This document shows positions 12,833 to 47,698 of a stretch of 64,000 nt of DNA, in pieces. The DNA lies in contig NZ_ML137218.1 in assembly GCF_004015795.1 (NCBI RefSeq), forward strand, positions 2,206,720 through 2,270,719. The letters are read 5' to 3'. The stretch comes from Falsirhodobacter deserti. GTDB taxonomy: Bacteria; Pseudomonadota; Alphaproteobacteria; Rhodobacterales; Rhodobacteraceae. Every line of letters begins with the position of its first letter. The first letter of the stretch is position 1. A model generated the notes under the pieces. The model was not told the DNA's origin, ran no database searches, and was given only the letters and a program-made list of their open reading frames with translations. Both the position numbers and the translations under genes were made by a program.

Positions 12833-13437
12833 GAGCGTTCACCGGCAGCCGCATCCTTTTCGCAACGCACAACAAGGGCAAGCTGGAAGAGATGCGCGCC
12901 CTGCTGGCGCCGCATGGCATCACGGTCGAAAGCAATGATGACCACAACCTGCCCGAGCCAGAGGAAACCGAGACGACCTTTGTCGGCAATGCGCGCATCA
13001 AGGCGCATGCTGCGGCAAAGGCGACTGGCCTGCCTGCACTGGCGGATGACAGCGGCATCACCATTGATGCGCTGGACGGCGCACCCGGTGTTTACACCGC
13101 CGACTGGGCCGAAACCCCTGACGGCCGCGATTTCGTGATGGCGATGACAAAGACGTGGAACAAGCTGGAAGCAGCAAATGCCCCCTTCCCGCGCACCGCG
13201 CAGTTCAACGCCACGCTGGTTCTGGCATGGCCTGACGGGCATGACGAGGTGTTTGTCGGTCGGCTAGAGGGTCAGGTCGTCTGGCCGATGCGCGGCGCAC
13301 AGGGCCACGGATATGACCCCATCTTTCAACCGGATGGCTTCGACACCACATTGGCTGAGATGTCTGCCGAAAAGAAGAACGAAATCTCCCACCGTGCGGA
13401 TGCGTTCCGCAAGCTTGTCAAAGGATGTTTCTCGTGA
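12829..13437 (+). CDS. rdgB: XTP/dITP diphosphatase (RdgB/HAM1)
   Basis: Hydrolyses non-canonical purine triphosphates (XTP, dITP) to keep them out of DNA and RNA. The 202-residue product has the signature [14 protein letters not shown] near the N-terminus, the ADDSGI motif and the C-terminal [10 protein letters not shown] segment with GHGYDPIF upstream, matching the HAM1 family at normal length. The start overlaps the rph stop by 4 bp. Its last codons overlap a degenerate parS-like palindrome and the next start. Confidence 0.95.
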
Positions 13438-13441
13438 AACT
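13426..13441. other. Degenerate parS-like palindrome
   Basis: This site reads TGTTTCTCGTGAAACT, matching 14 of 16 positions of the ParB recognition palindrome TGTTTCACGTGAAACA. It straddles the rdgB stop and ridA start, about 1.9 kb from parB. The mismatches are at positions 7 and 16. ParB tolerates some variation, so this may be a third, weaker centromere site, but chance is possible because part of the match encodes ordinary codons. Confidence 0.4.
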
Positions 13442-14959: not shown

Positions 14960-15309
14960 TGCGCCTGTTGTGGGGGATTGGCGGTGGGCTGGCCCTGATC
15001 CTTGCCACGGTGGGCGCCGTTCTGCCGCTTCTGCCGACAACACCATTCCTGCTGCTTGCCGCGTTCTGCCTGTCGCGATCATCTGACCGGTGGCACCGCT
15101 GGCTTCTGAACCACGGTTGGTTGGGGCCTCCGATCCATGACTGGCGCACAAGGCGGGCCGTCAGCCGCCGCGTGAAATGGAAAGCCAGCCTGTCGATGCT
15201 GGCGGTCCTGGGGATATCCGCCCTTCTGCACGTGGACATGCGCCTGCTGGCCGTGCAGGCGCTGGTCCTGTGCGTCGTGGCCACGTTTCTATGGACTAGG
15301 CCCGAGTAG
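14959..15309 (+). CDS. YbaN family membrane protein (DUF454)
   Basis: A 116-residue inner membrane protein with an N-terminal hydrophobic hairpin (LLWGIGGGLALILATVGAVLP, then LPTTPFLLLAAFCLSRSS) and a second hydrophobic pair near the C-terminus. The LPTTPF motif and the HPWLGP-like HGWLGPPIHDW segment identify DUF454. Molecular function is unknown. The ATG overlaps the hemW stop (TGATG). Its 3' end overlaps the convergent parB gene by 14 bp, so the two genes share their last codons. Confidence 0.85.
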   Translation: MRLLWGIGGGLALILATVGAVLPLLPTTPFLLLAAFCLSRSSDRWHRWLLNHGWLGPPIHDWRTRRAVSRRVKWKASLSMLAVLGISALLHVDMRLLAVQALVLCVVATFLWTRPE

Positions 15310-16186
15310 CCGAAAGCACACGGCAGAGGTTGTCCAGATCCTCAAGCGTATTGTAGCGGATGGAAAGAACGCCGCTTTCCCCACCAGCAAGGTGGTCGAT
15401 CTGGACAGTCATCTTGAGGTGGGCACTCAGATCCGCCTCAAGCGCGCGAGTGTCAGCATCCTTGTCACTGGGCTTGCCAAGGCGGGGCTTTGCAGCACGC
15501 TCCGCAGTTCCCTTTACCAACTTCTCTGTCTCGCGGACGGAAAGTCCCTTCTCAACCACTTGCCGGGCAAGGGCAGAAGCATCCTCGCATGTGACAAGAG
15601 AACGGGCATGGCCTGCCGAAAGCGGCCCATCGCGCAGCATTTCCTGCACATCCGCCGGAAGATTAAGCAATCTCAACAAGTTAGCGATGTGCGAGCGACT
15701 TTTCGACAGCCCCTCGGCAAGCTTTTCCTGCGTATGCCCAAAACGATCCATCAATTGGCGGAACCCCATCGCTTCTTCGATAGGGTTCAGGTCCGCCCGC
15801 TGAATGTTTTCGATGATTGCAACTTCAAGCACTTCGGTATCGTCAAAATCCCGAACAACAACTGGAAGGTCGTGCAGTTGCGCCATCTGCGACGCGCGCC
15901 AGCGACGTTCCCCTGCCACGATTTCATAGGTATCCGTGCCGTCGATCGGCCGCACGATCAGGGGCTGGATCACGCCCTTCTGCCGGATGGATGCGGCAAG
16001 ATCCGCCAGCCCTTCCGGCGCGAACTCCCGTCGTGGCTGGTTCGGGTTCGGAATGATCTTTTCGACAGGAAGGGTCATGTCGGCACGGCGCGACGTCGAC
16101 TCGGTTGGTGTTTCGACGTTGATGTCGGCCATAAGCGCCGACAGACCGCGGCCCAAGCCGCGACGTTCCATCTTGCGTTCTATCAC
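15296..16186 (-). CDS. parB: Chromosome partitioning protein ParB
   Basis: CTP-dependent DNA clamp that loads at parS and drives segregation of the origin region with ParA. The 296-residue product has the N-terminal GLGRGLSALMAD segment, the CTP-binding motifs GERRWRA and IENIQRADLNPIEEA, a central helix-turn-helix (GHTQEKLAEGLSKSRSHIANLLRLL, about residues 148-172) and a C-terminal dimerisation region. Translation starts at GTG, overlapping the parA stop (GTGA), so the genes are translationally coupled. Perfect parS sites lie upstream within rsmG and mnmG. Confidence 0.96.
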   Translation of the reverse strand: MIERKMERRGLGRGLSALMADINVETPTESTSRRADMTLPVEKIIPNPNQPRREFAPEGLADLAASIRQKGVIQPLIVRPIDGTDTYEIVAGERRWRASQMAQLHDLPVVVRDFDDTEVLEVAIIENIQRADLNPIEEAMGFRQLMDRFGHTQEKLAEGLSKSRSHIANLLRLLNLPADVQEMLRDGPLSAGHARSLVTCEDASALARQVVEKGLSVRETEKLVKGTAERAAKPRLGKPSDKDADTRALEADLSAHLKMTVQIDHLAGGESGVLSIRYNTLEDLDNLCRVLSATRA

Positions 16187-16980
16187 GCGCTTTTCCTCAT
16201 CTGCTGACGATGACGTCCCAATATCTCGTTCGCAAGGGCACGATAAGCTTCGCTGCCTTTCGAACTCGTATCATATTCAAGAACCGGTACAGCGAAAGAG
16301 GGTGCCTCACTCACCCGAACATTTCGTGGGATGATGGTTGCGAAAACAAGTTCACCCAACGTTTGCCGCGCGTCGTTTTCAACAAGCTGCGACAGGTTGT
16401 TACGCTTGTCATACATCGTAAGTACGACACCTTCGATACGCAGCGTAGGGTTGGCAGTCTGACGCACTTCGCGGACCGTTAGCATCAACTGCGAAAGACC
16501 TTCCAAGGCAAAGAACTCTGCCTGCAACGGAACGAGAACTGAATCCGCAGCCACCAGCGCATTGATGGTCAGAAGGCTTAGCGACGGCGGGCAGTCGATC
16601 AGGATGTAATCATACAAATCGGCAGAAGAAGAACGGAGCGCATCGCGCAAAAGCACGCTTCTCTTCTCGTTCGCCAGAAGCTCCATATCTGCCGAAGAAA
16701 GATCAGCATTTGCGGGGCAAACGAAGAGTTTGGCAACGGACGTCTTAAGGGCTACGTCCTCAAGTGGTGTGCGCTCAAGCAGCAGATCGAAGGTCGTCAG
16801 GCTGCGTGCCCCCGGCTCGATACCAAGACCTGTTGAAGCGTTCCCCTGCGGATCCAGATCGACCAGAAGAACAGCATGCCCTTGTTCGGAAAGTGCTGCT
16901 GCAAGATTGATCGCCGTAGTGGTTTTACCCACCCCACCCTTCTGGTTCGCGATCGCAATGATCCTGGTAGCTTCAGACAT
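16183..16980 (-). CDS. parA: Chromosome partitioning ATPase ParA
   Basis: Soj/ParA-type ATPase forming the gradient that segregates ParB-parS complexes. The 265-residue product carries the deviant Walker A motif KGGVGKTT at residues 14-21, DLDPQGNAS, and a DCPPSL Walker B segment, with the short Soj-like N-terminus typical of chromosomal ParA. Its first 8 bases overlap the end of rsmG. The gene order rsmG-parA-parB is the canonical origin-proximal arrangement. Confidence 0.97.
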   Translation of the reverse strand: MSEATRIIAIANQKGGVGKTTTAINLAAALSEQGHAVLLVDLDPQGNASTGLGIEPGARSLTTFDLLLERTPLEDVALKTSVAKLFVCPANADLSSADMELLANEKRSVLLRDALRSSSADLYDYILIDCPPSLSLLTINALVAADSVLVPLQAEFFALEGLSQLMLTVREVRQTANPTLRIEGVVLTMYDKRNNLSQLVENDARQTLGELVFATIIPRNVRVSEAPSFAVPVLEYDTSSKGSEAYRALANEILGRHRQQMRKSA

Positions 16981-17584
16981 GCGAGAAGTTCCTTACCTCC
17001 ACGATGACCCCCGCCGGGTCCGTGATACTCGGGTGGATTACAGGATCGAAATGCCACGTTCTTGCAGCTTCGGCAATCTCTTCCGCATAGTTGACACCTT
17101 TCGGAAAAACGGCCTTACCATCTCCTTGGCGATGACGTGCAGCGAAACCGAGCAGATGGTCAAGCGGCGCAAGCGCACGAGCTGAGAGGATGTCGCCCCC
17201 AAGCGGCGCGACTGCTTCAATCCTTTCAGAAATGACATCGACCTTCAGATTACACAGCCGCGTCGCCTCCCGTAGGAAAGCGCATTTACGCCGATCCGAC
17301 TCCACAAGAGTGAAGCGCCTATCCGGATGCTTTTCCAGCGCGATTATTGCTATGACGATACCAGGAAAACCGCCACCACTTCCGAGATCTACCCAATGCG
17401 CGCCCTCCCCGGCCAAATCATATAGCTGGGCCGAGTCCTCGATATGTCGCTTCCAGATATCTGCTTCGGTAGTTTTTGAGATCAGGTTGATCACGCGTGT
17501 CCATTTAAGAGCAAGCTCACTGAAGCGATTCAGGCGATCGGTTGTTTCACGTGAAACATCCACTTTAGACGGCCTTCTTTTCAA
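16973..17584 (-). CDS. rsmG: 16S rRNA (guanine527-N7)-methyltransferase RsmG
   Basis: Methylates G527 of 16S rRNA in the 530 loop. The 203-residue product has the SAM-binding motif [12 protein letters not shown] (about residues 65-76) and the upstream [10 protein letters not shown] segment, as in GidB/RsmG proteins. The N-terminal residues VSRET are encoded by a perfect parS palindrome at 17543-17558, so this stretch serves both coding and centromere functions. It overlaps mnmG upstream by 20 bp and parA downstream by 8 bp. Confidence 0.95.
17543..17558. other. parS centromere site inside rsmG
   Basis: A perfect 16-bp copy of the ParB-binding palindrome TGTTTCACGTGAAACA. It lies in codons near the rsmG start, where it encodes VSRET on the minus strand, about 1.4 kb from parB. 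Sites of this kind near gidB (rsmG) are well known in bacteria with chromosomal ParAB. Confidence 0.95.
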
Positions 17585-19439
17585 GCCGACGCAGGCGCGC
17601 GATGATCAACGTCAACGCAGCAGGCGTCATTCCCTCGATCAGCTTTGCACGCGCAATGCTTCCCGGTCGCTGCCGGTCCAGCTTTGTTGCCAGCTCACCT
17701 GAAAGCCCAGGAAGCCGTAAAAACTCGAAGTCAGAAGGAATAATCAGCGACTCTTCCCGTTTGAGGTTATCAGCTTCATTCTGCTGCCGACCTGCATATT
17801 GGGCATAGACAGCGTCTGTTACAATCTGTTGCCGAAGGTCATTCGACAGCTCTGCGAATGCCGGCGCAAGATCGTCAACAATGTTCATAGGAACATCAGC
17901 TATCGCAAGCGCGGCAAGACCAGTGCGTTTGCTTCCGTCTTGGCTCACTCGAACCCCGCGGCGGATAAGCTCTGAGGGCGTCACGAGGACATTCTCGAGC
18001 GCCTGTTTCCCCCTTGCCAGATCGCGCTGCTTCACCTCAAACGCTGCTGCGCGCGCCGGATGAACAAGCCCAAGCTCGATTCCCATAGGTGTCAGACGCT
18101 GGTCCGCGTTGTCTGCGCGCAGGGACAGCCTGAATTCAGCACGGGAGGTGAACATGCGGTAGGGTTCGGTTACCCCACGTGCCGTCAGGTCAGAAATCAT
18201 AACGCCGATATAGCTGTCGGTCCTGCTGAATACAGCAGCATCGCGGCCTTGAACATGAAGGGCAGCATTCAAACCTGCAACCAGACCTTGAGCGCCGGCC
18301 TCTTCATAGCCAGTTGTCCCGTTGATCTGGCCCGCCAAATAGAGACCAGGGACAGCCTTCAGCTCGAGCGTCTCGGCCAGTTCACGCGGGTCAAAATAGT
18401 CATATTCAATCGCGTAGCCGGGCTGACTGATCTTCACGCTTTCAAGGCCGACGATCGACCGGACGTACGCCTCCTGAACGTCAGCCGGAAGCGAGGTCGA
18501 AATCCCGTTGGGATAGACAGTGTGATCATCCAGCCCTTCCGGTTCGAGGAAGATCTGGTGTGACTCCTTCTCCGCGAAACGGACAATCTTGTCTTCGATG
18601 GACGGGCAGTAACGGGGACCAACCCCTTCAATGTGCCCGCCATACATCGCTGAACGACCTAGATTCTGCCGAACGATCTCATGCGTCTGCACATTCGTAT
18701 GGGTAATCCCGCAGGAGACTTGGGGGACGGTCGGGCTGCTGGACATGAAGGACAGCATGACAGGATGATCGTCACCATCCTGGCGATCAAGCTGGGCCCA
18801 GTCGATCGTGCGCCTGTCAAGCCGAGGTGGAGTTCCGGTTTTCAGCCGTCCCCGACGCAATCCAAGATCAGCAAGCTTCTGCGCAAGCCGAACCGAGGGA
18901 CGATCCCCCATCCGGCCGCCCTTATGGCGGACGTCACCGATATGGATGATGCCGTTAAGGAAGGTGCCCGAGGTGAGAATAGCGGCAGTGCACTGAATTT
19001 GGCTTCCATCGGCCAAGATCACGCCACGAACTCTGCCTTCATTCTGAAGAAGGTCGACAACCTCCCCCTCAAGCACGTCGAGATTCCGCGTAGCTTTCAC
19101 AAGCGCTTGGACAGACTGACGATATAGTTTCCGATCCGCCTGAATCCTCGGCCCCTGAACCGCGGCCCCTTTGCGCCGGTTCAACAGGCGGTATTGAATG
19201 CCCGCGCCATCCCCTGCACGTGCCATGATGCCATCAAGTGCGTCAATCTCTCGCACAAGATGGCCCTTCCCCAACCCTCCAATGGCCGGATTGCAAGACA
19301 TGACGCCGATGTCGTTACGCGAAAGCGTAACAAGCACCGTTGCTGCACCCATACGTGCGGAGGCCGCTGCGGCCTCGACGCCTGCATGGCCACCACCGAT
19401 CACGACGACATCATAATGTTTCACGTGAAACATCCTCAT
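17565..19439 (-). CDS. mnmG: tRNA uridine 5-carboxymethylaminomethyl modification enzyme MnmG
   Basis: FAD-dependent partner of MnmE that modifies U34 of tRNAs reading split codon boxes. The 624-residue product has the FAD-binding motif [10 protein letters not shown] near residues 15-24, the [21 protein letters not shown] segment and the C-terminal [10 protein letters not shown] block, all typical of MnmG (GidA). The start codon overlaps the mnmE stop by 4 bp. The N-terminal residues FHVKH are encoded by a perfect parS site at 19417-19432. Confidence 0.97.
19417..19432. other. parS centromere site at the mnmG start
   Basis: A second perfect copy of TGTTTCACGTGAAACA, beginning a few bases after the mnmG start codon and encoding FHVKH on the minus strand. 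It lies about 1.9 kb from the rsmG copy and about 3.2 kb from the origin region. Confidence 0.95.
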
Positions 19440-22137: not shown

Positions 22138-22575
22138 CTAGAACCGGACGATCACCGAAATCACGATCACCACCATCAGCAGCGTCGGCAGCTCGTTCAT
22201 CATGCGATAGGTGCGGCCCGAGAGCTTGTTTTCACCGCGTACGAAATCCTTGCGCCGTGCAGCCAGCCAGCCGTGGAACGCGCTCATCGCAAGAACGGCA
22301 GCACCCTTGGTCCAGGGCCAGATCTGCGACCAGTCCACGACGCCGGGCGTAAAGACAAGGCACAGCCCGAAGACCCATGTCGCGATCATCGCAGGATTGA
22401 TGATCGCCCGCAGCAGTCGGCGCTCCATCGTCTGGAACAGTTCCTCCGGTACGTCATTCTCGGCGTGATAAACGTAAAGCCGCGGCAGGTAAAACAGCCC
22501 GGCCATCCACGCGATGACAGAGATCACGTGAAGCGCCTTGACCCAGAGATAGGCTGAAAGAAGCAGATCGAACAT
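22138..22575 (-). CDS. hemJ: Protoporphyrinogen oxidase HemJ
   Basis: Membrane enzyme oxidising protoporphyrinogen IX to protoporphyrin IX, the form used by many alphaproteobacteria instead of HemG or HemY. The 145-residue product has four predicted membrane segments and HemJ hallmarks: the WVKALHVISVIAWMAGLFYLPRLYVYH segment with its conserved histidine, and the RRKDFVRGENKLSGRTYRMMNELPT stretch. It lies directly beside the origin, running away from it like rho and the par genes. Confidence 0.92.
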   Translation of the reverse strand: MFDLLLSAYLWVKALHVISVIAWMAGLFYLPRLYVYHAENDVPEELFQTMERRLLRAIINPAMIATWVFGLCLVFTPGVVDWSQIWPWTKGAAVLAMSAFHGWLAARRKDFVRGENKLSGRTYRMMNELPTLLMVVIVISVIVRF

Positions 22576-22983
22576 GCCCGACCCATATCTTCTTAAAGTA
22601 TTGAAAGAAAGAAGGATGATTAAGTAGTAGGCCCGGTGGATAACTGAATCCAGCTTGTTTTCCCGTGGGTTTGAGCGCAGCCCTCTGCCTGTGGAAAATT
22701 ACGGGGAATATCCGGGCGATCCGCGAGGCATTACGCTGCATTGCCCTTATTTCACTGGGGTTGATCGTGGATAACCTGATGTGGATAACTGCGGGCATAT
22801 CCTATTGATCCATGATGATTCGGAAGTTTATCAACATGAGACCGAATCACGATATCAACATGTGGATAATAACCCTTGGTCGCTTGACTCAATGCCTGAG
22901 TCGTCCCATGCCTTCCGGATGAGGAATATTTTCCCGAAGACCGTGCGCCCGATTCGACCCCGATTCCTCCACAGAGTCGCCCA
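22576..22983. other. oriC: Chromosomal replication origin (oriC) candidate
   Basis: A 408-bp gap without credible genes between divergent hemJ and maf, the largest non-coding stretch in the window. It holds two perfect DnaA boxes TGTGGATAA (22780-22788, 22861-22869) and four one-mismatch boxes (GGTGGATAA 22635-22643, TGTGGAAAA 22690-22698, CGTGGATAA 22766-22774, TTATCAACA 22828-22836). Five of the six point the same way. The stretch 22583-22630 is only about 30% GC and may be the unwinding element. Eight GANTC sites are present. Genes on both sides run away from it (rho to parB leftward, maf to dnaQ rightward), as at the Caulobacter-type origin. Confidence 0.88.
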
Positions 22984-23583
22984 ATGAGCCATCGCCTTAT
23001 TCTTGCCACATCATCCGATTCGCGTCGCCGCATTGTGGCAAGCGCGGGAGTGCAGGCAGAAGCCCTCCCCGCACGCATCGATGAGGAGGCAATCAGGCTG
23101 GCATTGGAGGCGGAAGCCGCCAAACCACGCGACATCGCCGACACGCTGGCCGAGATGAAGGCGCGCAAGATCGCCGAACGGCATCCTGATTCCATCGTGA
23201 TCGGCAGCGATCAGGTTCTGTGTTTCGAAAACAGGGTGCACGGCAAGCCTGATTCTCTGGATTCGGCCCGCCGGATGCTGCAGCAGATGCGCGGAAAAAC
23301 GCATCAGCTCATCTCGGCCGTGGTGGTTTATGAAGGGGCACGGCCGGTTTGGCGGCACGTGGATCAGGCCAGCCTGACGATGCGAACCTTCTCGGATGAC
23401 TGGCTGGAAGGTTACCTTCAGCGCAATCATGATGTGGTCTGCACCTCGGCTGGAGGCTACAGGCTGGAAGAGGAAGGCGTGCGACTGTTCTCGGATATCA
23501 AGGGTGACTGGTTCACCATCATGGGCCTTCCCCTGCTGCCGCTGCTGGTGTGGCTGACACAGAGGGGATTTATCGATGGCTGA
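22984..23583 (+). CDS. maf: Maf family nucleotide pyrophosphatase
   Basis: Maf/Ham1 superfamily enzyme predicted to hydrolyse non-canonical or modified pyrimidine nucleoside triphosphates. The 199-residue product has the ATSSDSRRRIV N-terminal motif, KARKIAERHPDSIVIGSDQV with the catalytic aspartate, and LFSDIKGDWFTIMGLPLLPLL near the C-terminus. It is the first gene to the right of the origin, as in several alphaproteobacteria. Its 3' end overlaps aroE by 8 bp. Confidence 0.93.
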   Translation: MSHRLILATSSDSRRRIVASAGVQAEALPARIDEEAIRLALEAEAAKPRDIADTLAEMKARKIAERHPDSIVIGSDQVLCFENRVHGKPDSLDSARRMLQQMRGKTHQLISAVVVYEGARPVWRHVDQASLTMRTFSDDWLEGYLQRNHDVVCTSAGGYRLEEEGVRLFSDIKGDWFTIMGLPLLPLLVWLTQRGFIDG

Positions 23584-24406
23584 CCGTATTCCGCTGGCCG
23601 GTGTCATCGGCCATCCCATCGCACACAGCCGCTCTCCACGGCTTCATGGCTTCTGGCTGCAGCGATATGGCCTTCAGGGGCACTATGTCCCCATGGATGT
23701 GGGCGGGCAGGATCTGGAACAGGTGATCCGGTCTTTGCCAAAGGCGGGTTTCGTGGGCGTTAACGTTACAATTCCGCATAAGGAGGCGATGATCAGGATC
23801 GCCGATGTCGTCACTGACCGGGCAGCCCTGATCGGCGCTGCGAACACCATTACCTTCCTGCCGGATGGCCGCATCTATGCCGATAATACGGACGGGGCAG
23901 GCTTTATCGAAAACATGTGCCAAGGCGCACCCGACTGGGATGCAAAGGCGGGGCCGGCTGCCTTGTTCGGGGCCGGCGGCGCGTCCCGCGCTGTGGTCTC
24001 TGCCCTGATCGAGGCTGGTGTGCCGGAGATACGCATCGCCAACCGTACGCGTGCCCGCGCCGAGGCGCTGCGGACGGACTTCGGCCCCCGCGTCATCGTG
24101 TATGACTGGATCCAGGCCGCGAACATGCTGGAAGATGCGATGACGGTGGTGAACACCTCCTCGCTTGGCATGACAGGTAAGGCTGCCTTCCGCGTGCCGC
24201 TGGATGCGCTGTCCCCGAAGGCGACGGTGACGGATATCGTCTATGCCCCCCTTGAAACCACTCTTCTGGCCGAAGCGCGTGCCTTGGGCTGCACCGTGGT
24301 GGACGGATTGGGCATGCTGCTGCATCAGGCCGCCCCAGGTTTCGAGCGTTGGTTCGGCCACCGCCCCGAGGTCGACGACGCAACACGCGACTTCGTCCTG
24401 GGATGA
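23576..24406 (+). CDS. aroE: Shikimate dehydrogenase (NADP)
   Basis: Reduces 3-dehydroshikimate to shikimate in aromatic amino acid synthesis. The 276-residue product has the substrate-binding GHPIAHSRSPRLHG motif, the catalytic lysine in NVTIPHKE (Lys69), NTDGAGF, the NADP-binding GAGGASRAV loop and a NRTRARAEAL segment. It overlaps maf (8 bp) and coaE (4 bp), forming a maf-aroE-coaE-dnaQ operon. aroQ, an earlier step of the same pathway, is elsewhere in this window at about 59 kb. Confidence 0.96.
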   Translation: MADRIPLAGVIGHPIAHSRSPRLHGFWLQRYGLQGHYVPMDVGGQDLEQVIRSLPKAGFVGVNVTIPHKEAMIRIADVVTDRAALIGAANTITFLPDGRIYADNTDGAGFIENMCQGAPDWDAKAGPAALFGAGGASRAVVSALIEAGVPEIRIANRTRARAEALRTDFGPRVIVYDWIQAANMLEDAMTVVNTSSLGMTGKAAFRVPLDALSPKATVTDIVYAPLETTLLAEARALGCTVVDGLGMLLHQAAPGFERWFGHRPEVDDATRDFVLG

Positions 24407-24969
24407 TCCGTCTCGGGCTCACCGGCTCCATCGGTATGGGGAAATCGACCACCGCGGCGATGTTTGCTGCCGCGGGGGTGCCTGTCTGGGATGCGGATGC
24501 CGCAGTTCACCGCCTTTACGCGCCGGGAGGGGCGGCAGTCGCCCCGCTTGCTGCAGCGTTTCCGGAAGCCGTAAGCGATCACGTGGATCGCATGGCGCTG
24601 AAAACCGTCATAGCGCGCGATCCCGCAGCCCTGGACCGGATCGAAGCCATCGTGCATCCGCTTGTTGCCGCAGATCGCGATGCCTTCCGCCCAAGCGTTC
24701 CAATGGCCGTGTTCGACATCCCGCTACTGTTTGAGAAGAGCGTTCAGATGGACCGGACACTTCTGGTCACCGCCCCGGCGGTGCTGCAGCGTGCCCGCGT
24801 TCTGTCCCGCCCCAACATGACCGAAGCGATGCTGGACACCATCCTGTCCCGCCAGATGCCGGACCGCGACAAGCGCGCCCGCGCCGACCACATCATCGAA
24901 ACGCTTGATCCCGAGGCGACCCGCTTGCAGGTCCATGCCCTCATCCGGTATCTGACGCAGCATGCGTGA
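24403..24969 (+). CDS. coaE: Dephospho-CoA kinase
   Basis: Last step of coenzyme A synthesis, phosphorylating the 3'-hydroxyl of dephospho-CoA. The 188-residue product starts [16 protein letters not shown] with the P-loop at residues 8-16 and has [11 protein letters not shown], a VHPLV motif and DIPLLFE, as in other CoaE proteins. The ATG at 24403 overlaps the aroE stop (ATGA); the upstream frame extension to 24349 lies wholly inside aroE. It overlaps dnaQ by 8 bp. Confidence 0.95.
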
Positions 24970-25645
24970 GATTGTTCTGGATACCGAAACCACTGGCCTT
25001 GATCCCTTCACCGGCGACCGGATCGTGGAGATCGGCGGCGTGGAACTGCTGAACCACATGCCCACGGGGCAAACCTATCACCAGTACATCAACCCTGAAC
25101 GCAACATGCCGACCGAAGCGTTCGAGGTGCACGGAATCTCCGAAGATTTCCTGCGTGACAAACCCGTCTTCGCACAGATCGGACGCGAGTTTCTGGATTT
25201 CGTGGGGGATGCTAAGCTGGTCATCCACAATGCCAGCTTCGACATGAAGTTCCTGAACTATGAACTGAAGCGGATGGGGCTGCCGGAACTGCCGATGGCA
25301 CAGGCGATCGACTCGCTCGCCATCGCCCGCAGGCGGTTTCCCGGTTCTCCTGCGTCGTTGGATGCCTTGTGCCGCCGGTTCGGCATCGACAACTCCTCCC
25401 GCACGAAGCACGGCGCGCTTCTGGACAGCGAGATCCTGGCCGAGGTGTATCTGGAACTGATCGGCGGCCGGCAGCCTGACCTTGTGCTGACAACCGGGCC
25501 GGTGCGCGAAACCGGCGTGCAAACCGACTGGCGTCCGCGCCCGCGTTCCGTGCCGCTGCCATCGCGCATAACGGAAGCGGAAGCCGCCGCCCATGCTGCC
25601 TTCGTGGAAAAGCTGGGCGACGGCGCGATCTGGCTGCGCCGTTAG
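24962..25645 (+). CDS. dnaQ: DNA polymerase III epsilon subunit (proofreading exonuclease)
   Basis: 3'-5' proofreading exonuclease of the replicative polymerase. The 227-residue product has the DEDDh exonuclease motifs: Exo [11 protein letters not shown] (Asp7, Glu9), Exo [15 protein letters not shown] and Exo [18 protein letters not shown] with the catalytic histidine. A C-terminal tail of about 50 residues probably binds the polymerase alpha subunit. It is the last gene of the rightward operon and overlaps the convergent secB by 4 bp. Confidence 0.95.
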
Positions 25646-26191: not shown

Positions 26192-26635
26192 TCAGTGCCG
26201 GGTCCACGCCGAAGGGGGGCGATGCGTTGCCTTTTCGGCGTCAAGGTCAATGAACTCGCCGTCGATCGTCGTCTCGCGCGGGGGGTGCGGGCGCACCACG
26301 CGCACCCGCGCGGCGATCCGCCGCATCACAAGATTGCGCACCTGCGGCAAAAGCAGCAGAAGGCCCAGCGTGTCGGTCAGGAAACCGGGCAGAATCAGCA
26401 GGCTGCCGGATGCCACCAGCATGGCCTTGTGGGCAAGGGGCGACAGCGGATCCGCCTGTGCCTGGAATTCGCGCATGCGCGACGGGCCACCCTGCGCACG
26501 GATCAGCGCCATGCCGCCAGCAGCGGTTCCAAGGATGATCAACAGGGTCAAACCAAGCCCGATCGCCGAACCAACGGTGACGAACAGGCTGATTTCGATC
26601 AGCGGCAGGCCGATCAGCAGGGCAAAAAGCCACAT
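26192..26635 (-). CDS. fxsA: FxsA family membrane protein
   Basis: A 147-residue inner membrane protein of the FxsA family (named for suppression of F-plasmid exclusion of phage T7; physiological role unclear). The N-terminus WLFALLIGLPLIEISLFVTVG and the following GLGLTLLIILGTAAGGMALIRAQG are diagnostic, and a third hydrophobic stretch (LLILPGFLTDTLGLLLLLP) follows. The ATG at 26635 has a clear AAAGGAG ribosome binding site. It lies upstream of secB on the same strand and is divergent from the Tim44-like gene, with 102 bp between starts. Confidence 0.9.
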   Translation of the reverse strand: MWLFALLIGLPLIEISLFVTVGSAIGLGLTLLIILGTAAGGMALIRAQGGPSRMREFQAQADPLSPLAHKAMLVASGSLLILPGFLTDTLGLLLLLPQVRNLVMRRIAARVRVVRPHPPRETTIDGEFIDLDAEKATHRPPSAWTRH

Positions 26636-26737
26636 GCAAAGGCTCCTTTCTCGGGCGTCGCAGCGGTGGACTCGGCCGCGCTCGATCCCTACATAAGCAC
26701 AACGGGGCTGATCCCAAACCCCTGACCGAGGTAACGT

Positions 26738-29864: not shown

Positions 29865-29940
29865 CGGGTCTCCTTCAGGCAGCGCGCGGAACAATGGGCG
29901 CGCCCCTTTCGTTGTCTGGGAAATAAACGGAGGATGCGTC

Positions 29941-30423
29941 ATGCCGACACCGGCAGAACTTGAAAAGAAACTGTGGAAGGCGCTGCAGGATCACGCGACG
30001 GTTTTTCTGGGCCTGTCCAATGCAGAACACGGCCATGCCCGTCCGATGACCTTCATTGCCGATGGCGATCACGGCCCGCTTTATGTCTTCACCACCAAGG
30101 ATAACGACATGGTGGAACGGGCGCATGCCGGCAGCGCGGCCTTTGCCCATTACGTGTCCAAGGGGCATGACCTTTGGGCCTGCATCCACGGCAACATTTC
30201 CATCACCGCGGATCGGGCCGTCATCGACCGCCTTTGGAACAGCCACGTCGCCGCATGGTACAGCGGCAAGGACGACCCGAAGATGGCCGTGATCCGGTTC
30301 GATGCTGACCATGCCGAGGTGTGGGAAGACAGTTCCAGCGCCCTTGCCGGGATCAAGCTGGCGCTTGGCCTGTCCGATCCCAAGAAGGACGCGCAGGGCA
30401 AGAAGGCCACCGTCCAGATGTAG
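29941..30423 (+). CDS. Pyridoxamine 5'-phosphate oxidase-like flavin-binding protein
   Basis: A 160-residue split-barrel protein of the general stress protein 26-like branch of the pyridoxamine phosphate oxidase superfamily. Visible features are the N-terminal helix ([13 protein letters not shown]), the [25 protein letters not shown] strand pair, a [24 protein letters not shown] block and a basic tail. Such proteins bind FMN or F420-type cofactors; no substrate can be assigned. The ATG at 29941 has GGAGGA upstream. It sits on the plus strand between hslV and hslU, antisense to the expected hslVU transcript. Confidence 0.8.
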
Positions 30424-30427
30424 GCCT

Positions 30428-30988
30428 TCAGCCGCGGGCAATACGTTCCACCGTCAGCTTGCCGTTGGTGTAAACGCAGATTTCCGCGGCAATGGCCATG
30501 GCCTTCCGGGCGATATCCTCGGCCGGAAGGCCGGTTTCCATCAGGCCGCGCGCTGCCGCCAGCGCGAAGTTTCCACCCGAGCCGATCGCGGCGACGTCAT
30601 GCTCCGGCTCCAGCACATCGCCTGCGCCGGTGATGACCAGAAGATCGGTGCCGTCGGTCACGATCAGCATCGCTTCCAGTTTCTGCAGATACTTGTCGGT
30701 CCGCCAGTCCTTGGCCAGTTCCACGCTGGCGCGGGCCAGCTGGCCCGGAAAGGCCTCCAGCTTCGTTTCCAGCCGTTCCAGCAGGGTGAAGGCATCCGCG
30801 GTCGATCCCGCAAATCCCGCGATCACTTCGCGCCCGCCGGGGGACAAGCGGCGCACCTTGCGGGCTGTTCCCTTGATGACGGTCTGCCCAAGGCTCACCT
30901 GTCCGTCGCCTGCGATCACCACCTCGTCTCCGCGCCGCACGCCGATGATGGTGGTGCCGTGCCAGCCGGGAAATTGGTTGTCCGCCAT
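30428..30988 (-). CDS. hslV: HslV protease subunit
   Basis: Threonine peptidase of the HslVU complex, proteasome beta-subunit fold. The 186-residue product has the catalytic [11 protein letters not shown] segment, [30 protein letters not shown] and [16 protein letters not shown]. An 11-residue leader ([11 protein letters not shown]) precedes the catalytic threonine at residue 12, so processing beyond initiator methionine removal is expected; alphaproteobacterial HslV often has such a leader. A candidate promoter lies at 31014-31041. Confidence 0.96.
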
Positions 30989-46722: not shown

Positions 46723-46810
46723 CGCCTTCGATTATTAACGTATTGTGATGTTCGCAAATGGGTTTATTTTCATTGCAGGGCAAGAACGATAACATCCCGA
46801 AGGAATCAGC

Positions 46811-47119
46811 ATGGATATCGATGCACTTTCGCTTAAAGAACTGAAGGATTTGCGGGCGCAGGTCGATCGGGCAATCAACTCGTTCGAGGATCGCCGCAAG
46901 CGTGAAGCTGTGGCTCGGCTTGAAGCGGAAGCGCGTGAACTGGGCTTTACGCTGCAGGATCTGGTCGATGCCGCGAATTCCAAAAAGCGCGCCCCGGCCG
47001 CGCCCAAATATGCCAATCCCGAAAATCCGTCCGATACGTGGTCCGGCCGTGGCCGCAAGCCGCGCTGGTTTACCGAAGCTGTGGCCGCCGGCCGTTCGCC
47101 TGAAGATATGGCCGTCTGA
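46811..47119 (+). CDS. hvrA: H-NS family nucleoid protein HvrA
   Basis: A 102-residue H-NS-type protein. The N-terminal half is a helical oligomerisation region (LSLKELKDLRAQVDRAINSFEDRRKREAVARLEAEA), and the C-terminus carries the minor-groove-binding core TWSGRGRKPRWF. HvrA of Rhodobacter capsulatus activates photosynthesis genes in low light and lies next to regA, and this context is the same. The 88 bp upstream are AT-rich and probably hold its promoter. The symbol is assigned from homology plus position. Confidence 0.9.
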   Translation: MDIDALSLKELKDLRAQVDRAINSFEDRRKREAVARLEAEARELGFTLQDLVDAANSKKRAPAAPKYANPENPSDTWSGRGRKPRWFTEAVAAGRSPEDMAV

Positions 47120-47698
47120 TCACGTCAGAAGCTGGTGATGGCGCGCCACAAAGTCGCGGCGCGTTTCCACCGGCGGACGCAAGACAAGGTCCAGCCCTTC
47201 AGTTAATTCGGGGGGCGGGGCCTTGCCGAAAAACCTTGTCGCCTCACTTTCCGAAAATCCTGCAATCCGCACTGCCTCCATTCGGGCAGATATGCGGTCT
47301 GCCTGCTTGATCCGCTTTTTCAGCGCCATCGGCAGTTTTGGCGGCAGGCCGAAACGCAGGTGGATCGCCGCTGTAAGACGGGCATCCAGATCGGCATAGG
47401 CAGGACCGATCGCGGCTTTTACGGGGCTAATCATGTCGCCGATGACATATTCCGGCGCATCGTGCAGCAATGCCGCAAGCCGGTCCGGCAGTGACGCTTT
47501 CGGTTCAAGCCGGGAAAAGATACGTTCCACCAGTAGGGAGTGTTCGGCCACGGAATAGGGCCAGTCACCCAAGGTTTGCCCATTCCAGCGCGCCACGAAC
47601 GCAAGGCCATGGGCAATATCCCCGATCTCGATATCGACGGGGGTCGGGTCCAGAAGATCAAGCCTGCGGCCAGAAAGCATGCGTTGCCATGCGCGCAT
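47120..47698 (-). CDS. HD family hydrolase (YfbR-like)
   Basis: A 192-residue HD-domain protein of the YfbR/5'-deoxynucleotidase type. The metal ligands are visible in YSVAEHSLLVERI, ALLHDAPEYVIGDMISPVK and KQADRISARMEAVRI. Related enzymes dephosphorylate deoxynucleoside monophosphates, but the exact substrate cannot be set from sequence. The ATG at 47698 has AAGGGA about 8 bases upstream; an earlier ATG at 47707 sits too close to that site. The much longer upstream frame is not coding. It converges with hvrA, with no gap. Confidence 0.83.
   Translation of the reverse strand: MRAWQRMLSGRRLDLLDPTPVDIEIGDIAHGLAFVARWNGQTLGDWPYSVAEHSLLVERIFSRLEPKASLPDRLAALLHDAPEYVIGDMISPVKAAIGPAYADLDARLTAAIHLRFGLPPKLPMALKKRIKQADRISARMEAVRIAGFSESEATRFFGKAPPPELTEGLDLVLRPPVETRRDFVARHHQLLT

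Follow-up and report, generated by a model that had tools for sequence, protein, structure and literature searches.

A predicted DnaA-dependent replication origin between hemJ and maf of Falsirhodobacter deserti, and a possible DnaA-trio variant in Alphaproteobacteria

Introduction

The origins of Caulobacter crescentus (Cori) and Rickettsia share a locus of the order hemE-Cori-COG1806 (PMC1914354). In Rhodobacteraceae, oriCs of 101 strains have been predicted with Ori-Finder on the basis of DnaA boxes, a local GC minimum, and nearness to parAB and to the GC-disparity minimum (PMC6699656). A more detailed picture of origin opening comes from Bacillus. In the Bacillus complex, the middle A of a DnaA-trio contacts Asn187, while the G contacts Arg202 and Glu228; replacement of the middle A by T or G impaired opening by Bacillus DnaA (PMC10721633). 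Elements of the basal unwinding system (BUS) were found in 1755 of 2070 predicted origins, and the authors of that survey suspected deviant trios without a middle adenine (PMC8287927). Given this coverage, parts of the module described below may already be in the tables of the survey.

The DNA analysed here, referred to as the window, is a stretch of 64,000 nucleotides (C1:2206720-2270719; contig C1, 2,292,967 bp; genome, 2.98 Mb). Its gap between hemJ and maf, located at 2229.3-2229.7 kb of C1, is in our opinion the DnaA-dependent replication origin (oriC) of the main chromosome, with a probability of about 0.95; we infer this function from the elements of the gap, their conservation, and its position.

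Position and history of the locus

Leftward of the gap the genes run hemJ, rho, mnmE, mnmG, rsmG, parA, parB, and rightward maf, aroE, coaE, dnaQ. The features of the neighbourhood are as follows.

22576..22983, no strand: predicted oriC gap between hemJ and maf, 408 bp (conserved gap, boxes, skew)
22138..22575, minus strand: hemJ, left flank (TIGR00701 above cut-off)
22984..23583, plus strand: maf, right flank (PF02545 above cut-off)
23576..25645, plus strand: aroE, coaE and dnaQ, right of maf
15296..16980, minus strand: parB and parA (Pfam domains)
17543..17558, no strand: parS TGTTTCACGTGAAACA, perfect 16-bp palindrome, about 5.0 kb from the gap
19417..19432, no strand: parS TGTTTCACGTGAAACA, perfect 16-bp palindrome, about 3.1 kb from the gap

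As an earlier note on this DNA had stated, the flanking genes diverge from the gap, and parAB and parS lie within 8 kb of it. A third, degenerate parS-like site with two mismatches is present at 13426-13441. The further claim of that note, that no other non-coding gap exceeds 300 bp, is plausible, though the crude gene finder left further gaps of that size, one of which is occupied by rsmG, and among 10 ORFs tested from these gaps six matched Pfam above the family cut-off and one just below it, with no Pfam match for the ORFs at 26250-26696, 29875-30441 and 46735-47058.

Relatives were collected by a hemJ alignment, which led to 80 loci, the best 80 of 584 confirmed. We take these loci to be Rhodobacterales from their titles, three of which read just Alphaproteobacteria or Pseudomonadota; “family” denotes the 80 loci plus genomes marked as belonging to the same family. 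In a second set of relatives, hemJ was present in 36 of 41; 30 loci were taken and yielded 17 usable gaps. In 77 of these best 80 of 584 loci, hemJ and maf lie next to each other and diverge, and the gap between them measures 377-455 bp in 74. The remaining six are L099 (cut at a contig end), L134 and L138, which gave no hemJ-maf pair, and L093, L112 and L130, in which the gap is long. Within the gap, hemE is retained in L093 and L112, and L130 has the order hemJ-hemE-gap-PF03618 gene-maf. The PF03618 gene, which we take to be COG1806/DUF299, is also retained, without hemE, in the family members L063 and L068; for the hemE and PF03618 calls, one protein of each kind was confirmed by Pfam. Of 30 hemE loci taken from the class outside the family, 28 have hemE and a PF03618-type gene facing each other over a distance of 373-724 bp, and the other two, L269 and L272, have no PF03618-type neighbour; these 30 are the top scorers among 98 matching genomes rather than a random draw. 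The gap lies in a conserved cluster, rho-hemJ-(hemE)-gap-(COG1806-type)-maf.

Linked through L130, L093/L112, L063/L068 and the 28 class loci, the window gap occupies by gene order the same place as Cori and the Rickettsia origin (PMC1914354), with which it shares DnaA boxes and an AT-rich segment. Unlike Cori, it has no exact TTAA-N7-TTAA CtrA site (a pattern likewise absent from 17 of 17 family gaps tested, and found in 2 of 28 class gaps); its matches to an IHF consensus all have one mismatch, hemE has moved to C1:227664, and the PF03618 (COG1806-type) gene has no match in this genome. The label “Caulobacter-type origin” beside maf-aroE-coaE-dnaQ, used in the earlier note, therefore holds for the locus, with the qualification that one classical neighbour is relocated and the other not found, and does not extend to regulation. 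The simplest reading of the window arrangement would be the Caulobacter/Rickettsia origin locus after losing both flanking genes, which suggests that an alphaproteobacterial origin outlived the loss of both of its classical neighbours. The window shares the criteria applied to the 101 Rhodobacteraceae strains; the accessible text of that study describes neither an unwinding module nor a history of the flanking genes (PMC6699656).

Next to hemJ, L138 (Paracoccus halophilus) lacks any match to maf, aroE or dnaQ, and L134 (a Paracoccus MAG) has aroE and dnaQ there with no maf match. The origin locus may have been rearranged in both.

DnaA boxes and the AT-rich segment

The gap contains six DnaA boxes and an AT-rich segment.

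22635..22643, minus strand: DnaA box TTATCCACC, one mismatch; anchor of the unwinding module
22690..22698, minus strand: DnaA box TTTTCCACA, one mismatch
22766..22774, minus strand: DnaA box TTATCCACG, one mismatch
22780..22788, minus strand: DnaA box TTATCCACA, perfect
22828..22836, plus strand: DnaA box TTATCAACA, one mismatch
22861..22869, minus strand: DnaA box TTATCCACA, perfect
22583..22630, no strand: AT-rich segment, presumed first-melting site, 29.2% GC

The box count agrees with the two perfect and four one-mismatch boxes, five in one orientation, reported earlier, as does the GC content with the estimate of about 30% at 22583-22630. With 14 G+C of 48, this segment ties with 46727-46774 as the lowest-GC 48-mer of the window; the latter just precedes a plus-strand ORF (46812-47120) that by eye resembles an H-NS family nucleoid protein.

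Exact matches to TTATNCACA in the 64 kb are just the two perfect TTATCCACA boxes, compared with 0.27 expected, and two exact boxes per 64 kb were reached by 3 of 100 shuffles. Boxes with at most one mismatch occur in the window in a chance number (14, with 12.95 expected); six of them crowd into 235 bp (22635-22869), five on the minus strand. Genome-wide there are 15 exact boxes, and the pair in the gap alone has another within 3 kb. Across the 91 orthologous family gaps, the window's included, the mean number of boxes with one mismatch or none is 3.36 per gap versus 0.34 in shuffles, a contrast that, like the z-scores given below, is overstated because the gaps are related and some are nearly identical; 83 of the 91 have at least two boxes, and one has none. 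By the window and 91-gap counts, the clustering of boxes at the gap exceeds chance.

A conserved, putative unwinding module

When the gaps were aligned, a block beside hemJ stood out, in which an A tract rich in purines is followed by GATGATGATGTAGG, a few bases of GC spacer, and a DnaA box. The earlier note, correct in the oriC features that it gave, had missed both this element and the GANTC cluster described below. In the window, the block reads AAG TAG TAG, GCCC, GGTGGATAA (22622-22643).

22604..22664, plus strand: predicted unwinding module, conserved, made up of A-rich tract, triplets and box; 36 bits with model R1 (E 1.3e-8 in the genome)
22622..22630, plus strand: three DnaA-trios AAG TAG TAG (3'-GAT GAT GAA-5'), spacer 4
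22631..22634, plus strand: GC spacer GCCC between trios and box, from the sequence

The window thus shares with the BUS of Bacillus subtilis a co-oriented box, a 4-bp GC spacer, and AAG TAG TAG on the expected strand (PMC8287927, PMC6669920, PMC10721633). It has no tandem second box at 22635, where the adjoining 9-mers differ at 6 to 9 of 9 positions (published limit, 4); the tandem is the commonest arrangement (57%) and is not obligatory (PMC8287927). Among the titles listed in a literature search on DnaA-trios in Alphaproteobacteria and Caulobacter, none concerned an alphaproteobacterial trio module, most subscription journals and all supplementary tables lying beyond its reach. Six regions adjoining dnaA, five from Bacillota and one from an actinomycete, served as controls, all from records filed as plasmids; TAG/TAA trios before a GC spacer and boxes were recognized by eye in four, and L294 and L295 have no canonical trios.

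Three analyses address the conservation of the block. First, the best match to a block matrix is on the same strand in 89 of the 91 gaps, and 81 exceed the 95th percentile of shuffles, an in-sample result as the matrix was scored on its own training sequences. Second, R1, a sequence-only model of the block trained on relatives including the window, found 60 of 72 loci and has one strong match in the genome, at 36 bits, followed by one at 15.5 bits (150 of 326 candidates scored); unfiltered, its next best match in the window has 4.6 bits. Because the window belongs to the training set of R1, the search was repeated with a matrix of 63 sequences excluding its genus, which scored 35.4 at 22599 and 14.8 at the next independent site in 933 kb of own DNA. 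The strongest module match of the genome sits in the gap by the genus-free matrix as well.

Third, R1 was applied across the class; with an E threshold of 0.01 it hit 26 of 142 genomes. Among 18 R1 loci taken from outside the family, 8 lie between hemE and a COG1806-type gene or maf, and 10 lie elsewhere. In 24 of the 28 class hemE loci, the best unfiltered match falls in the gap and has the polarity seen in the window, an outcome expected at about 6% per locus if matches were placed at random. These class matches are often weak (E 2e-8 to 0.3), those of L255, L263, L271 and L278 cover the box half only, and L250, L251, L261 and L274 have no match. Since many matches are weak or limited to the box half, and boxes are expected in the gap anyway, it is the shared polarity and the strong cases that carry the argument for the module.

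The formal BUS rule proved less useful. The window has all of its parts, i.e., a DnaA box, a spacer of 0-16 bp, and three or more NAN trios on the proper strand, and so do 57 of the 91 gaps versus 14.35 in shuffles. Nevertheless, the rule alone is non-discriminating here, since an NTN control gave 69 and the other side of the box gave 43. It was therefore dropped as evidence over the 91 gaps and replaced by the alignment model and phase tests.

Strand composition and alternative readings

GC skew and KOPS were evaluated on sampled stretches of C1, about a third of the genome. No similarity was found between the first 15 kb and the last 13 kb of C1, and its circularity is therefore an assumption. 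A TPP riboswitch lies near the C1 end (L024 4893-4988).

In the sampled stretches of this 2293-kb contig, cumulative GC skew drops from 2100 kb to about 2190 kb, stays low until about 2250 kb, and then climbs, with dips, past the contig end to 135 kb. The minimum is thus a plateau at about 2190-2250 kb that spans the gap; a minimum elsewhere on the chromosome, named in the earlier note as evidence against an origin here, was not found. A two-point fit places the best origin bin at 2190 kb, 39 kb left of the gap, with a score of 10562, and an origin at the gap scores 10462, within 1% of the best. The fitted terminus is at 1080-1090 kb, where 1082.9 kb is expected opposite the gap if C1 is a closed chromosome. 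The KOPS-type marker GGGNAGGG agrees on the terminus and puts the origin at 2290/0 kb. Between the gap and the contig end, where plus-strand sites would be expected, 3 are on the plus strand and 10 on the minus strand, and polarity switches about 60 kb right of the gap, near the contig end. This was counted against the origin reading. As KOPS polarity is strong overall and its switch lies about 60 kb off the gap, the marker is a good guide to the terminus and a rough one to the origin, and it was rejected as an origin locator.

In a relative of the same genus (G003), the orthologous gap is the best KOPS point (56/56) and near-best by GC skew (5163 of 5259). In a single-contig relative (G009), it fits more poorly (GC skew 6127 of 6827, KOPS 48/52), its best origin bins falling at 370-540 kb for GC skew and 3070-3240 kb for KOPS, with the gap at 3478 kb. 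Like the 39-kb offset of the best skew bin, this poorer fit and the lack of a second box adjoining that at 22635 count against the origin reading. A search for a dif site with an E. coli-like pattern gave four three-mismatch matches versus three for a backwards control, i.e., no signal.

The KOPS switch, together with a TTGAC-like block seen by eye before maf in the gap alignment, could speak for an alternative in which the gap is merely the divergent hemJ/maf promoter region, with DnaA acting as a transcription regulator, and the origin lies elsewhere, perhaps near the switch at the contig end. We regard this as very unlikely. GC skew is already rising from about 2250 kb, the strongest module match of the genome is in the gap, and boxes and module are kept beside differing flanking genes, which promoter function alone does not predict. 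Even less probable is that replication starts beside dnaA, which lies at about 2015.7 kb of C1. In many bacteria dnaA adjoins oriC; here, 214 kb from the gap, the 3486 bp around dnaA contain no box with at most one mismatch, and sampled skew is not permanently positive from there. Equally improbable is the idea that the gap is a former origin superseded by another; no observation favours it, and against it stand the module conserved at the gap and a skew plateau that fits this place.

Two side observations may be added. Between 2229 and 2282 kb of C1, GGGNAGGG sites are mostly on the minus strand (10/13) over about 50 kb right of the predicted origin, though GC skew turns positive at about 2250 kb; this could reflect an inversion of long ago or selection that is weak close to the origin. 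Apart from dnaA, five equal-scoring weak DnaA-domain family matches occur in 262-aa frames (C1:888527, 1481253, 1861890, 2090564 and C5:6214), which we would guess to be the IstB-type helper ATPase of one insertion sequence.

Proposed course of initiation

With the gap as oriC, the elements described above suggest how initiation may proceed. DnaA would bind the five co-oriented boxes, presumably most tightly the perfect pair at 22780 and 22861, and would then pass to the box at 22635, the starting point of a DnaA-ATP filament that could extend leftwards onto the plus strand of the trios at 22622-22630 and, by stretching this strand, open the AT-rich tract at 22583-22630 for helicase loading. 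After firing, forks are expected to run left through hemJ-rho-parAB and right through maf-dnaQ, and ParB on the two parS sites would segregate the new origins. The proposal locates an origin to the base pair in a group for which predictions commonly stop at the level of a region.

A possible variant of the DnaA-trio

The locus is an ordinary, classical place for the group. The interesting part is a possible variant of the trio, which hints that related bacteria use a slightly different opening signal. In the first 160 nt of the 28 class gaps, the longest run of G at every third base averages 5.5 versus 3.4 in shuffles, and the corresponding run of A 3.25 versus 3.26. Runs of G of at least 5 occur in 21 of the 28, compared with 13% of shuffles and with 6 of 28 on the maf side. 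A DnaA box with at most two mismatches lies within 30 nt downstream of 11 of the 21 runs; among the remaining ones are stretches of GC-rich DNA outside the module. For the family, the 91 gaps give a G run of 4.38 versus 3.21, and the A run is also raised, 5.57 versus 3.77, which is owed at least partly to the A-rich tract.

When the phase is anchored on the first box, G is phased with z of about 13-15 in 90 family gaps and about 5 in 23 others. T is phased less (z 2.6-6.4). For A, phasing is weak in the family (z 4) and absent from the 23 others (z about -1); all of these z-scores ignore kinship. In the runs preceding boxes, the canonical middle position is A in 35 of 132 triplets in the family and 16 of 55 in the others. 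The commonest triplet in the class gaps, GTA, corresponds to the canonical TAG trio after a shift of frame.

DnaA residues were read by alignment to the sequence of the Bacillus complex (8BTG), for a set that includes 11 DnaAs taken from 40 listed of 53 matching records. The DnaA of this genome has Tyr, Lys and Glu at Bacillus positions 187, 202 and 228. Position 187 is aromatic in all six readable of seven alphaproteobacterial DnaAs (three Tyr, two Trp, one Phe), Asn in four Gram-positive DnaAs, and Gln in two gammaproteobacterial DnaAs. Wherever readable, position 202 is Arg or Lys, and position 228 is Glu. Compared with the Bacillus BUS, then, G recurs every third base outside the family and A does not, and residue 187 is aromatic rather than Asn; the association of residue and trio is a correlation from a small sample.

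We therefore put forward, tentatively and with the odds somewhat against it, that the class Alphaproteobacteria uses a DnaA-trio variant with G at every third base (GAT, GTA, GTT, GTG) and no fixed middle adenine. Such a variant would be read by a DnaA that keeps the guanine-contacting Lys/Glu (202/228) and has an aromatic Tyr, Trp or Phe in place of Asn187, code and reader having changed together. Our estimate was lowered slightly because only 11 of the 21 G runs are linked to a box, GTA is a reframed TAG, and A runs are raised in the family. The window itself carries canonical trios (two TAG, one AAG), so that any such variant would characterize the class more than this particular origin. 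The module is a concrete candidate for the deviant trios suspected in the BUS survey, with a matching change in DnaA, and this combination makes the question directly testable.

GANTC sites

A further element of the gap is a cluster of GANTC.

22646..22978, no strand: eight GANTC sites (22646, 22817, 22844, 22886, 22898, 22951, 22962, 22974)

Eight sites in 408 bp compare with 0.52 expected at the window rate, with 2.36 in gap shuffles (p 0.002), and with no more than six in any 408-bp span of 869 kb of other own stretches. When the 256 patterns of the same form are ranked in the window gap, GANTC comes second, after TANTA (two copies). In the genus, 41 sites occur in 7 gaps, with 16 for the next of 24 same-letter pentamers; single-gap shuffle p values are 0.002, 0.001, 0.006 and 0.029 in four gaps and 0.08-0.19 in three. 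The three sites before maf (22951-22978), spaced by 11 and 12 bp (about one helical turn), are kept in four of seven genus members, including L049, L050 and L051. As a general feature of the family, the cluster was rejected: the mean is 1.86 per gap versus 1.81 shuffled, and 31 of 91 gaps have none.

GANTC is the target of CcrM, and the genome encodes GcrA and a RAMA-domain protein, the latter taken for CcrM. GANTC sites in the C. crescentus origin have been reported (PMC3973325); in Caulobacter, CcrM is not required for initiation, and its overexpression disturbs chromosome content (PMC6090056, a review). Counts in origin gaps are uneven, ranging from 0 to 11 between lineages (L109, L082, L084, L056; class L252, L274, L251), as if the sites had been gained or purged in different lines.
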